A stretch of 64,000 nucleotides of DNA from Candidatus Mycobacterium wuenschmannii (GTDB taxonomy: Bacteria; Actinomycetota; Actinomycetes; Mycobacteriales; Mycobacteriaceae): the NCBI RefSeq assembly GCF_030252325.1, contig NZ_CP126981.1, positions 1,054,001 to 1,118,000 of the forward strand, written 5' to 3'. Positions 29,659 to 38,675 of this stretch are shown in pieces (position 1 is the stretch's first letter; every line of letters begins with the position of its first letter). The notes below the pieces were generated by a model. It made no database searches and had not been told where the DNA came from. It saw only the letters and a program-made list of their open reading frames with translations. The position numbers and the translations under genes were made by a program.

Positions 29659-31428
29659 ATGGACGTGCAAACGCAGCTGTCACAACTGAGCCCGGAGGAA
29701 CGCGCCGCGCTGGTGCAGAAGATCAAGTCGCGGCTGCACGACGGCGAGAGCATCCAGTCCGACAACGACGTCGCGATCGTCGGCGGTGGAATAGCCGCAC
29801 TCACTCTGGCGCTCGAGCTTCGTCGCGCTCGGCCCGACACGCGAATTCTGATCGTCGAACCGCGCGATCACCCGGTACCGGAGATCACTCACACCGTCGG
29901 CGAGTCGACTGTGGAGATCTCCGCGCAATACCTTCGGGATCACCTCGAATTGGCCGATCACCTGAACACGGCGCAGCTCCGCAAAATGGGGCTACGCATG
30001 TTCTTCTCCCATGACGGCAATACCGACATCGCCCGTCGGCTGGAATTGGGCAGTTCGTCGTTCACACCGCAGGTCACCTATCAAATCGACCGGGGACGAC
30101 TGGAGAACGAGCTGAACCGCCGCTGCCTGTCCGAGGGCGTCGAAATCACCGCTGGCCGAGTAACATCCGTCGAACTCGGCGACGGCGGCCAACCCCACAC
30201 CCTCTCGATCCAGCGCGGGGATGACGCGAGTTCCGCCACGGCGCGCTGGGTGGTCGACGCCTCGGGGCGCAACCGAGCCCTGAGCCGCCAGCTGGACCTC
30301 AAGCGGTCCAACGAACATCTCTGCAACGCCGTCTGGCTGCGGATCGGCGTCGAAATCGACATCGGTCAATGGAGCGACGATCCCGATTGGCAGGCACGCC
30401 TCGTCGAGGGCGACCGGGCAATGTCCACCAATCACCTCATGGGGGAGGGCTATTGGGTGTGGCTGATCCGCCTCGCCTCCGGCTCCACCAGCGTCGGCAT
30501 CGTCGCCGACCCCGCGTTCCATGATTTCAGCGACTTCAACACCCTCGACAAGGCTCGATCGTGGCTCGCAGAGCACGAGCCGCAGTGCGCGGCGGTGCTG
30601 ACGCGCAGCGAGCACGTGATCAAAGACTTCCGAGTGATGAAGAACTACAGCCACGGCGCCACCAAAGTATTTGATGCACAGCGCCGTTGGTGCCTCACCG
30701 GCGATGCCGGTGTCTTCCTGGACCCGTTGTACTCGTCGGGTCTGGACCTCGTGGCGATCGGCAACGGGCTCATCACCGACATGATCACTCGACAACTCGA
30801 CGGGGAAGATGTGGTCGCGCGATGCGCGATCAACGACTCGCTGTATCGATCACTCACCGAGATGTGGCTCAACATCTACTGCAACCAGTACAAGCTCATG
30901 GGCTCGCCCTCCGTAATGACGGCGAAGGTGATCTGGGACATCGCTTTCTACTGGGGATTCCTGGGTTTGATGTACAGCAACGGGCGATTCGCCACCGTCG
31001 CCGACGACCCCGGTGTGGTGCCGCACTTGGAAGGGCTCATCGAACTGAGCAATCGGATGCAGCAGTTCTTCCATGAGTGGGCGGGCATCGAACACGCGCA
31101 CCACTCGTCGCAATTCGTCGATCTGTACTCCGCGCACAATTTTATGGTGACGCTGCATGTCGCGATGATGGGGCAAGCGTCGGACTTCGCAGCGCAGTTC
31201 GACGCGAACGTCCGGCTGCTGAGACAGCTGGCGGGTCAACTGGTCGACACCATCCTCACCGACAAGTGCCGCGATTTCGCCGACGACGAAGTCGTCCGGC
31301 AGGTGCAGGCATGGCAGCGCGACACTTTCCTGCGCGAACTCCGAGCCGCGTACCGCGAGATTCCCGATGACCATCCGCTCAGCCCGGATTGGATCGTACG
31401 AGACGCGCCTGCGCTTGAGTTCAGTTGA
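29659..31428 (+). CDS. Flavin-dependent halogenase-like oxidoreductase
   Basis: The 589-residue flavoprotein has dinucleotide motif VGGGIAALTLAL at 41-52, halogenase motif GESTVEI at 81-87, Lys109 in LRKMGLRMFF at the place of the catalytic Lys, and WVWLIRL at 266-272, which matches WxWxIP except that Pro is Arg. GDAGVFLDPLYSSGLDL is the conserved FAD end motif. About 35 N-terminal residues (QLSPEERAALVQKIKSRL) resemble linkers in assembly-line enzymes. It stands 58 bases before a PKS, so a tailoring role, chlorination or hydroxylation, is likely. The changed Pro makes true halogenation uncertain. Confidence 0.8.
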   Translation: MDVQTQLSQLSPEERAALVQKIKSRLHDGESIQSDNDVAIVGGGIAALTLALELRRARPDTRILIVEPRDHPVPEITHTVGESTVEISAQYLRDHLELADHLNTAQLRKMGLRMFFSHDGNTDIARRLELGSSSFTPQVTYQIDRGRLENELNRRCLSEGVEITAGRVTSVELGDGGQPHTLSIQRGDDASSATARWVVDASGRNRALSRQLDLKRSNEHLCNAVWLRIGVEIDIGQWSDDPDWQARLVEGDRAMSTNHLMGEGYWVWLIRLASGSTSVGIVADPAFHDFSDFNTLDKARSWLAEHEPQCAAVLTRSEHVIKDFRVMKNYSHGATKVFDAQRRWCLTGDAGVFLDPLYSSGLDLVAIGNGLITDMITRQLDGEDVVARCAINDSLYRSLTEMWLNIYCNQYKLMGSPSVMTAKVIWDIAFYWGFLGLMYSNGRFATVADDPGVVPHLEGLIELSNRMQQFFHEWAGIEHAHHSSQFVDLYSAHNFMVTLHVAMMGQASDFAAQFDANVRLLRQLAGQLVDTILTDKCRDFADDEVVRQVQAWQRDTFLRELRAAYREIPDDHPLSPDWIVRDAPALEFS

Positions 31429-31486
31429 GCTGGAACAGATCTGCTCCGCTCAACGGACTCGCATTACAGGTCGTTAGGTCGAATCG

Positions 31487-37012: not shown

Positions 37013-37848
37013 ATTCCGCGGTGCGCGTCCGCCGTCTAGCCAAGGCGTACGGACAGCTGCAAGCCGTGCGCGGAGTGGATCTCGATGTCGAGTACGGCGA
37101 GGTGTTCGCAATCCTCGGCCCCAATGGGGCCGGCAAGTCGACCACCATCGAGATCCTCGAGGGCCACCGCAAGCGTGACTCAGGTCAGGTCAGCGTGCTG
37201 GGCGAGGACCCCGGCACTGCGGGCCGGAACTGGCGCGCCCGCATCGGGATTGTGCTCCAGGAGGTCAGCGACGCCGGAATGCTGACCGCCCTCGAGACGG
37301 TGCGGATGTTCGCGAAATGCTATGGGTCGGCACAGATTCCCGAGGAGGTGCTGGAGCTCGTCGGCCTCGGGTCGGTTGCCCTATCGAAGGTGCGGACCCT
37401 GTCCGGGGGGCAGCGACGCCGTCTCGATGTCGCTCTCGGGATCATCAACGGCCCCGAGTTACTCTTCCTGGACGAGCCGACGACGGGCTTCGATCCCGAA
37501 GCGCGACTGCGCTTTTGGGATCTGATCCGGCTGCTCGCCCGCGGCGGCACGACGATCCTGCTGACCACCCACTATCTGGAGGAAGCGGCGGCGCTCGCGG
37601 ACCGCGTCGCGGTGATCGCCGCGGGCCGGGTCGTAGCGCTCGACTCGCCACGGAACCTGACCCGGTACGCGAGTTCGGCTGCCACAGTCCGCTGGCGAGC
37701 CGGCGGCGAAATATGTACTGAGCACACCGATCGACCGACCGACCTCATCAGGCAGCTGTCCAGCGACGGTGCGGAGCTTGCCGAACTGACGGTCTCTCGG
37801 CCGTCTCTGGAGGACGCCTACCTACAGCTGATCGGCATGCGGCGATGA
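37009..37848 (+). CDS. ABC transporter ATP-binding protein, drug-exporter type
   Basis: The 279-residue ATPase has Walker A GPNGAGKST at 37-45, signature LSGGQ at 131-135, and Walker B LLFLDEPTTG. The C-terminal extension resembles DrrA-type daunorubicin exporters (SRPSLEDAYLQLIG). GTG at 37009 overlaps the PKS stop in GTGA, so expression is coupled to the PKS. Its ATG-starting permease partner follows with the same type of overlap, so the pair probably exports the PKS product or confers self-resistance. Confidence 0.9.
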   Translation: MNSAVRVRRLAKAYGQLQAVRGVDLDVEYGEVFAILGPNGAGKSTTIEILEGHRKRDSGQVSVLGEDPGTAGRNWRARIGIVLQEVSDAGMLTALETVRMFAKCYGSAQIPEEVLELVGLGSVALSKVRTLSGGQRRRLDVALGIINGPELLFLDEPTTGFDPEARLRFWDLIRLLARGGTTILLTTHYLEEAAALADRVAVIAAGRVVALDSPRNLTRYASSAATVRWRAGGEICTEHTDRPTDLIRQLSSDGAELAELTVSRPSLEDAYLQLIGMRR

Positions 37849-38675
37849 GCGGCGGACACGCCGCCACGCCGGCGTCGCCACCGCTGCCGTCCCCGGTCCG
37901 CATCGGCCTGTCGCGGGTCGTCCCCGAACTCAAAATGTTCTACCGTCGCCCGGAGCAGGTGGTGCTGACGTTTTCGTTGCCAGCGATCATCTGCGTGCTG
38001 CTCGGGTCGATCTTCTCGACCCGACTGCCCAACACCGAAACCAGTACCGGTGCGGTGATCGCGGCGAGCATGCTCGCCTACGGCATCTTGTCGACGTCGT
38101 TCATCAACCTGGGCATCAGCATCGCAGCCGATCGCGACACCGGGGCCTTGCGGCGCCTGCGGGGGACACCCACGACCGCGCTGTCGTACTTCATCGGAAA
38201 GATCTTCCTGGTTGCAATCGTCAGCCTCGCCGAGGCTGTTCTGCTCGTGTCCGTTGGGCTGGCTTTCTTTCAACTTCGGCTGCCGTCAACGGTTTTCGGC
38301 TGGTTCACGCTCATCTGGGTGTTCCTGCTGGGCACCGTCAGTTGCTCGTTGCTCGGCATCTTCATCAGCAACCTGGCGAGTAACGCGGTTGCGGCCGCCG
38401 TCGTCACCAACGGCCCGGCAGTGGGTCTGCAGTTCGTGTCCGGCACCTACGTTCCGCTGGTGGTGCTGCCGGGCTGGATGTTGGTCGTCGGATCCTTGTT
38501 TCCGGTGAAGTGGATGGCGCAAGGCTTCCGTTCCGTCCTTCTGCCGCCGCAGATGGCCGCGTTCGAGCCGGCCGGCAACTGGGAGCACTGGCACACGTTT
38601 CTGGTGCTGACCGCATGGACAATCGGTGGTCTCGCCGCCTGCCTCGCGGTGTTCCGATGGTCGGACAGGAACTGA
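37845..38675 (+). CDS. ABC-2 type transporter permease
   Basis: The 276-residue protein has about six transmembrane helices, with TFSLPAIICVLLGSIFSTR and LGTVSCSLLGIFISNLAS typical of ABC-2 permeases (DrrB type). It pairs with the ATPase just upstream (ATGA overlap). Its stop ends at 38675, directly adjacent to the stop of the convergent oxidoreductase gene. Confidence 0.9.
   Translation: MSGGHAATPASPPLPSPVRIGLSRVVPELKMFYRRPEQVVLTFSLPAIICVLLGSIFSTRLPNTETSTGAVIAASMLAYGILSTSFINLGISIAADRDTGALRRLRGTPTTALSYFIGKIFLVAIVSLAEAVLLVSVGLAFFQLRLPSTVFGWFTLIWVFLLGTVSCSLLGIFISNLASNAVAAAVVTNGPAVGLQFVSGTYVPLVVLPGWMLVVGSLFPVKWMAQGFRSVLLPPQMAAFEPAGNWEHWHTFLVLTAWTIGGLAACLAVFRWSDRN

Follow-up and report, generated by a model that had tools for sequence, protein, structure and literature searches.

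Organization of the Locus

We analyzed a 64,000-nucleotide stretch of the genome of Candidatus Mycobacterium wuenschmannii (contig NZ_CP126981.1, positions 1,054,001 to 1,118,000; hereafter the window), in which a gene for a flavin-dependent halogenase-like protein, here called hal, is followed by genes for a polyketide synthase (PKS) and an exporter. On the forward strand, hal (589 aa; 29659..31428) precedes a type I PKS (1841 aa; 31487..37012) with the domain order ketosynthase (KS)-acyltransferase (AT)-dehydratase (DH)-ketoreductase (KR)-acyl carrier protein (ACP), an ATP-binding cassette (ABC) exporter ATPase with a GTG start (279 aa; 37009..37848; Pfam ABC_tran), and an ABC-2 permease (276 aa; 37845..38675; Pfam ABC2_membrane). 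As stated in the original prediction, which was made by a model from the sequence, 58 bases separate hal from the PKS start at 31487, and the three downstream genes overlap: the PKS stop TGA (37010-37012) and the ATPase start GTG share bases as GTGA, and the ATPase stop and the permease ATG share bases as ATGA. The ATPase most likely starts at 37009 and not at 36628, where the mechanically called open reading frame begins. The four genes form a single tight operon. That prediction gave the extent of the unit as these four genes and overlooked a fifth member, a CPA2 (NapA-like) cation:proton antiporter (425 aa; 28265..29542, reverse strand; Pfam Na_H_Exchanger, 189 bits), which diverges from hal and lies 116 bp upstream of it.

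Co-inheritance and Distribution of the Unit

We examined 65 hal loci (L009-L073) and found the PKS in 61 and the ATPase and permease in 56. The mycobacterial loci that lack the PKS or an ABC gene stop at or near a contig or locus edge, and the remaining loci without the full set are the non-mycobacterial L062, L063, L071, and L072. The linkage is thus not due to chance, which supports the proposed compact make-and-export unit. An antiporter of this class was detected by tblastn in 62 of the 65 loci, upstream of hal in 39 and downstream of the permease in 23, and at most 360 bases separate it from the unit in 59 of the 62; the more distant cases are L063 (1.1 kb), L067 (2.4 kb), and L072 (9.6 kb). 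The three loci without it are L060 and L070, in both of which a contig edge cuts hal, and Kribbella L062.

The same pattern was observed in a sample of 297 genomes, apparently of Mycobacterium in the wide sense, to judge from loci with names whose coordinates match (L061 and G030, for example), from which the same draw served the hal, PKS, and antiporter searches (the ABC pair was counted in the 65 loci). At E <= 1e-60, hal was present in 81 genomes, about a quarter of the sample; phylum-wide, the same threshold gave it in 4 of 396 genomes, all four belonging to this genus. The PKS, searched with its AT domain, occurred in 80 genomes, namely the hal set minus G664 (~590 contigs), and in none of the 216 hal-less genomes. 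The antiporter was matched at E <= 1e-50 in 90 genomes: 80 carried a copy of at least 44% identity, and all 80 had hal, a class of match found in 0 of the 216 hal-less genomes; the other 10 had matches of 35-40% and no hal. The association between antiporter and hal gave p ~1e-72 in Fisher's exact test, with related genomes treated as independent. An upstream antiporter type lay 26-354 bases from hal in 52 genomes and a downstream type 7.1-7.5 kb from hal in 26, as expected for a gene just past the permease; in two genomes hal and the antiporter were on different contigs, and G639 had hal without an antiporter. The two types have diverged, occupy opposite sides of the operon, and were together in 0 genomes. 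A tree built from 28 chosen antiporters placed the downstream type with the antiporters from the hal loci of Lentzea and Pseudonocardiaceae, with a long branch to the upstream type (91/100, not starred). Because of this grouping across a long branch, the simplest reading, if an unproven one, is that the antiporter was replaced in the lineage of the window.

The assignment of the antiporter is consistent with its structure-based matches, since the three solved chains matched were all Na+/H+ antiporters, and D181-D182 match the DD pair of 4bwz in the alignment; the protein thus combines the Na_H_Exchanger domain and the DD motif of the CPA2/NapA type. Its score against the CPA2 subfamily TIGR00932 (126.2 bits) was below the curated cut-off of 238.3, and a second copy was not detected in the genome.

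Among the best 80 of 108 hal relatives placed in genome contigs, most were mycobacterial; family members at 49-54% identity were found in Kribbella, Pseudonocardiaceae, Lentzea, and Nocardia, and others at 37-46% in Deltaproteobacteria, Pirellulaceae, Bacteroidetes, and other groups. A mycobacterial-type unit with hal 71% identical was also seen on an Ilumatobacteraceae-labeled contig (L017) from a metagenome-assembled genome, which is probably mis-binned. The suggested possible new pathway is better described as an uncharacterized one, given hal in 81 of the 297 genomes and similarly built PKSs elsewhere. No description of a mycobacterial halogenase-PKS cluster or its product was found in the open-license literature, seen in part, which is a weak test of absence. 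Recent lateral gain was considered from base composition and rejected, the GC content of the unit (0.62-0.68 in 2-kb windows) lying within the range of the window (0.605-0.680), which is weak evidence; plasmid searches returned no close copy of the unit.

The Halogenase-like Protein

The identification of hal as a halogenase-like flavoprotein was borne out by Pfam Trp_halogenase (52.3 bits; cut-off, 21). Seventeen distinct solved sequences matched hal: 16 halogenases and a single flavoprotein of unknown role (3nix). The predicted model has the halogenase fold, which is common to flavin hydroxylases too, and its top structural matches are halogenases; because these alignments span mainly residues 34-500, they barely probe the C-terminal end. 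In an alignment of 53 sequences (24 mycobacterial-type proteins of 120 listed, and 29 locus translations), the flavin adenine dinucleotide (FAD)-binding motif GxGxxG is present in hal as GGGIAA, with G42, G43, and G44 invariant in all rows. K109 is likewise present in all 53 rows, and we take it to be the catalytic lysine (KxG region), equated by motif rather than by superposed coordinates. Residues 353-361 read FLDPLYSSG and fit FxxPxxSxG, a motif of flavin-dependent halogenases; the D, P, Y, S, and G are invariant (53/53). hal belongs to a family of its own, with a near-invariant GxGYWVW stretch, and the protein scored 73.4 bits against the CmlS equivalog NF033113 (NCBIfam), well short of the cut-off of 900.

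The N-terminal helices of hal (approximately residues 3-27; 29665..29739, forward strand; modeled as helices at 3-8 and 12-27) lie over LSQLSPEERAALVQKIKSRL and constitute a possible docking element. They were observed in rows of the mycobacterial type and in a single hal copy from each of Kribbella, Pseudonocardiaceae, Lentzea, and Nocardia, and were not seen in the other paralogues of those four taxa or in the distant homologues. Two FAD proteins beside an Eleftheria PKS were considered as hal homologues and rejected, BLAST giving no match at 1e-3.

The Polyketide Synthase

The KS-AT-DH-KR-ACP order without a thioesterase (TE) was recovered with Pfam, which gave neither an enoylreductase (ER) nor a TE in the PKS. 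On the forward strand, the KS occupies approximately residues 11-440 (31517..32806), the AT residues 542-858 (33110..34060), the DH residues 908-1184 (34208..35038; PKS_DH_N and PS-DH), the KR residues 1433-1625 (35783..36361), and the ACP residues 1728-1790 (36668..36856), with Ser1756 placed from the PKS alignment as well. This alignment comprised 58 sequences of >1780 aa, namely the window PKS and 57 more from the 61 loci in which a PKS was matched; L012, L013, and L055 (cut by contig ends) and L052 (split frame) were left out. Twelve catalytic or cofactor-binding residues are invariant, including C185, H320, and H360 of the KS, H937 and D1102 of the DH, and K1558, S1582, and Y1595 of the KR (58/58 each). 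The protein is therefore a single-module type I PKS with a complete module, intact catalytic residues, and no TE. The AT carries GHSAGE and VPYHTH, motifs that point to malonyl and not methylmalonyl units, and thus appears to be of the malonyl type. As KR and DH are present without an ER, double bonds would remain in the chain. The C-terminal end of the PKS is LSDAELREMLVELE, and comparable stretches occur near the end of eight further sequences; this end may be the docking partner of the N-terminal helices of hal.

No known mycobacterial lipid PKS was matched, in agreement with the original prediction. The PKS failed the curated NCBIfam cut-offs of Pks2 (988.9 of 2400 bits), Pks13 (752.6 of 2100), MbtD (295.1 of 1150), and NbtC, and its best NCBIfam match, PKS_plus_SDR, reached 1309 bits, below the cut-off of 1740. 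We also built the KS tree that had been proposed as a check, with 47 sequences and with the KS of the genome's 3084-aa protein left out. Sixteen hal-linked mycobacterial KSs grouped together (77/100), adjoined by those of Kribbella and Pseudonocardiaceae, and the window KS fell outside the 14 other PKS KSs of its genome, the dividing branch being at 82/99 (not starred, bootstrap unsettled). Some of these own-genome KSs are presumably of the lipid type, the Pps-like and MAS-like names being taken from gene size and order. Some sources name the mycobacterial orthologues of the PKS mycocerosic acid synthase, a name that was probably carried over, because the protein has no ER and a separate KS.

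Other Actinomycetota, and Chloroflexota as well, have PKSs of matching size and make-up. With the Kribbella PKS as query, at least 120 like-sized proteins were returned, including ones from Kribbella, Streptomyces, Nocardia, Actinoplanes, Micromonospora, and Ktedonobacteria; no product was named among the matches listed, many of which are nameless. One of these proteins, listed as "type I polyketide synthase 1 [Streptomyces sp.]" (P0258), shares 49% identity with the window PKS. A long Protein Data Bank match, considered as an iterative synthase, was rejected, as it led to CalA3, which the portion of the source available presents as a chain-release module. A Tsukamurella plasmid (L135, 10001-22083) carries in a row a related PKS (35-53% identical by piece), a nonribosomal peptide synthetase (NRPS), and an ABC ATPase-permease pair.

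Upstream Elements and Flanking Genes

A 13-bp palindrome, CTTAACTATTAAG, is located in the antiporter-hal gap (29613..29625), its core starting 45 bases before the hal start, and is a possible operator. The core TTAANTRTTAA was found in 15 of the 65 hal upstream regions, the window included, and not in the 50 others; all 15 have the upstream antiporter type. It has no further occurrence on either strand of the 14 loci concerned (279,133 bases), and in the window it has one match against 0.00 expected by shuffling. A TANNNT (-10-like) element (29607..29612, forward strand) precedes hal with near-fixed spacing to the palindrome in the 15 regions and may be part of a promoter. Because a sigma-70 consensus scan returned 0 promoter-like sites, it is conservation that suggests both the promoter and the operator. 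The unit has no obvious regulator gene, and the palindrome is confined to one mycobacterial group.

The exporter genes did not reach the cut-offs of the DrrAB families, the ATPase scoring 243.5 of 312.45 bits with DrrA (TIGR01188), its best NCBIfam match, and the permease 44.5 of 223.05 bits with DrrB (TIGR01247). Downstream of the permease lies a gene for an FAD amine-oxidase-like protein (416 aa; 38676..39926, reverse strand; Pfam Amino_oxidase). Relatives stand beside the unit in L061 (77%) and beside hal, on either side, in L038, L041, L043 (60%), and L094 (61%), and no match was found in the other 61 of L009-L073; it is possibly, though not surely, an accessory member of the unit. Farther on, genes for an MmpL protein (958 aa) and an MmpS-type membrane protein (179 aa) occupy 41468-44862 on the reverse strand. 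We rejected MmpL as a member of the unit, since it had matches close to the unit, at 44%, in just 2 of the 65 loci.

Distant Relatives of hal

On a Janthinobacterium lividum plasmid (L101, 13431-31479), an antiporter, a hal homologue, an Asp/Asn hydroxylase, an alpha/beta hydrolase, and a PKS whose loading part is of the AprA-like GNAT kind are found together. In Pirellulaceae (L082, L083, and L088), a PKS of ~2600-2670 aa is followed by two hal-family proteins; the one scanned, from L082, reads KS-AT-DH-KR-ACP-KS-AT. In L063, L071, L072, L084, and L086, which represent two phyla, the hal-family genes have DUF1702 genes nearby, and clustering gave no DUF1702 member near hal in the other distant loci.

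Proposed Function of the Unit

On balance, we lean toward the proposal that the unit directs the biosynthesis and export of a small molecule, with an iterating PKS, tailoring by hal, and protection by the antiporter. The one-module PKS would load malonyl units and act repeatedly, building an unsaturated chain or a small aromatic acid held on the ACP. hal would dock through its N-terminal helices and, with reduced flavin, oxygen, and halide, would halogenate or, failing that, oxidize the carrier-bound chain; a chlorinated, aromatic, or polyene product could result. Because the unit has no TE, the product would be released by an enzyme encoded elsewhere. The ABC pair would then export it, and the antiporter might shield the producer from product-caused ion or proton stress or help to drive export. 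Transcription would begin in the antiporter-hal gap, where in some species a repressor may act on the palindrome.

Several observations weigh against this proposal. The starter unit, release, and the flavin reductase must all be supplied from outside the unit, which is a real gap, and an AMP-binding enzyme (536 aa; 48935-50545, forward strand) lies ~10 kb downstream. The motif WxWxIP is not found in hal, which reads WVWLIR (WxWxIR), the last position being R in 28 and P in 25 of the 53 aligned rows, and some true halogenases rank low against hal. In the chromosome-level record L052 (10001-17341), the PKS frame is apparently split (199 aa, then 1543 aa), possibly by a frameshift or a sequencing error. 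Moreover, the KSs of the Pirellulaceae and Janthinobacterium hal-family loci fall across the dividing branch from the unit KS, which means that hal and the PKS were not paired as a single ancient block.

The most serious rival, which we regard as plausible yet distinctly less probable, is that hal is a flavin monooxygenase, epoxidase, or dehydrogenase built on the halogenase fold and that the product is halogen-free. The lysine kept in every row, the invariant residues of FLDPLYSSG, the retention of both tryptophans and the isoleucine of WxWxIP, and the halogenases as highest structural matches argue against it. A halogenated small aromatic acid of the 6-methylsalicylate type, which is a special case of the small-molecule proposal, is a possibility to which we give about a one-in-four standing: ChlB1 and ChlB4 of chlorothricin are reportedly such a synthase with a partner halogenase, but the unit has no transfer enzyme, and the DUF1702 genes beside some distant hal relatives point to polyene chemistry. 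It is unlikely that the PKS makes a cell-envelope lipid that is tailored by hal and exported by the ABC pair or by MmpS/MmpL, for although mycobacterial PKSs are often devoted to lipids, the amine-oxidase-like gene is followed after 1.5 kb by an MmpS/MmpL pair, the AMP-binding enzyme is downstream, and the mycocerosic acid synthase name is in use, the PKS has no ER, the unit has neither an AMP ligase nor an acyltransferase, the Pks2 and Pks13 cut-offs were failed, the KS stands outside the 14 others of the genome, and MmpL is rarely near the unit.

Returning to the small-molecule proposal, a more far-reaching version, which we offer as a long shot, is suggested by the DUF1702 and PKS neighbors of the distant hal relatives. 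The unit would be a reduced representative of a broad, undescribed cluster class that combines one or more hal-family enzymes with an iterative polyene synthase and, in some lineages, with DUF1702 proteins. hal would halogenate a carrier-bound polyene as a step toward halogenated polyenes or alkynes, and the antiporter would serve specifically to protect the producer.

If this version is true, the unit would represent a halogenated polyketide pathway in mycobacteria, none having been found for the genus in the literature searched, as far as its partial texts go. Mycobacteria are known mainly for lipids and siderophores, and under the small-molecule proposal about a quarter of the sampled genus genomes would share an exported metabolite that is possibly halogenated. 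The genes are few enough to be transferred whole to a laboratory host and would provide a testable product for mycobacteria. In addition, hal adds a halogenase-like family with an altered signature motif, and the locus is a clear example of an antiporter linked to a biosynthetic unit and, in one lineage, apparently swapped for another.

Comparison with Known Systems

In structural alignments, hal is 16-23% identical to the halogenases PltA/Mpy16/ChlB4, PltM, CtcP, Bmp2, and CndH, from which it differs in the altered WxWxIP motif, its N-terminal helices, and a helical C-terminus past residue 500 that the alignments barely cover. Bacterial single-module iterative type I PKSs include the 6-methylsalicylate and naphthoate types, which the PKS resembles in its one-protein KS-AT-DH-KR-ACP make-up of ~1840 aa without a TE; however, the surroundings of the unit differ (antiporter and ABC pair), and the likeness is one of make-up only. 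A Na+/H+ antiporter and a halogenase also occur in one cluster in the glycopeptide clusters noc and dbv, according to the available part of the source (PMC8291499), although these have an NRPS-made peptide product, and the parallel is by gene presence and not by sequence. Enediyne cassettes likewise contain a reducing iterative PKS and share DUF1702, a family that a figure legend describes as enediyne-associated, with some distant hal relatives; the enediyne PKS order is KS/AT/KR/DH in the portion of that source available (PMC7692728). In contrast, the PKS of the unit reads KS-AT-DH-KR-ACP and DUF1702 was found in 0 of 37 genus genomes, that of the window included; the DUF1702 neighbors do not show enediyne chemistry in mycobacteria.

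The loci of Kribbella, Pseudonocardiaceae, Lentzea, and Nocardia (L062, L063, L071, and L072) differ from the unit in having two or three hal-family genes, DUF1702 in three of them, and a thioesterase in Kribbella; the ABC pair was not seen there, and only L063 extends clearly past the PKS (~1.7 kb). Their hal proteins are 49-54% identical to that of the window, the PKS is 48-49% identical in the two of these loci that reach it, and an antiporter is present in three of the four, at 1.1 kb, 59 bases, and 9.6 kb from hal.

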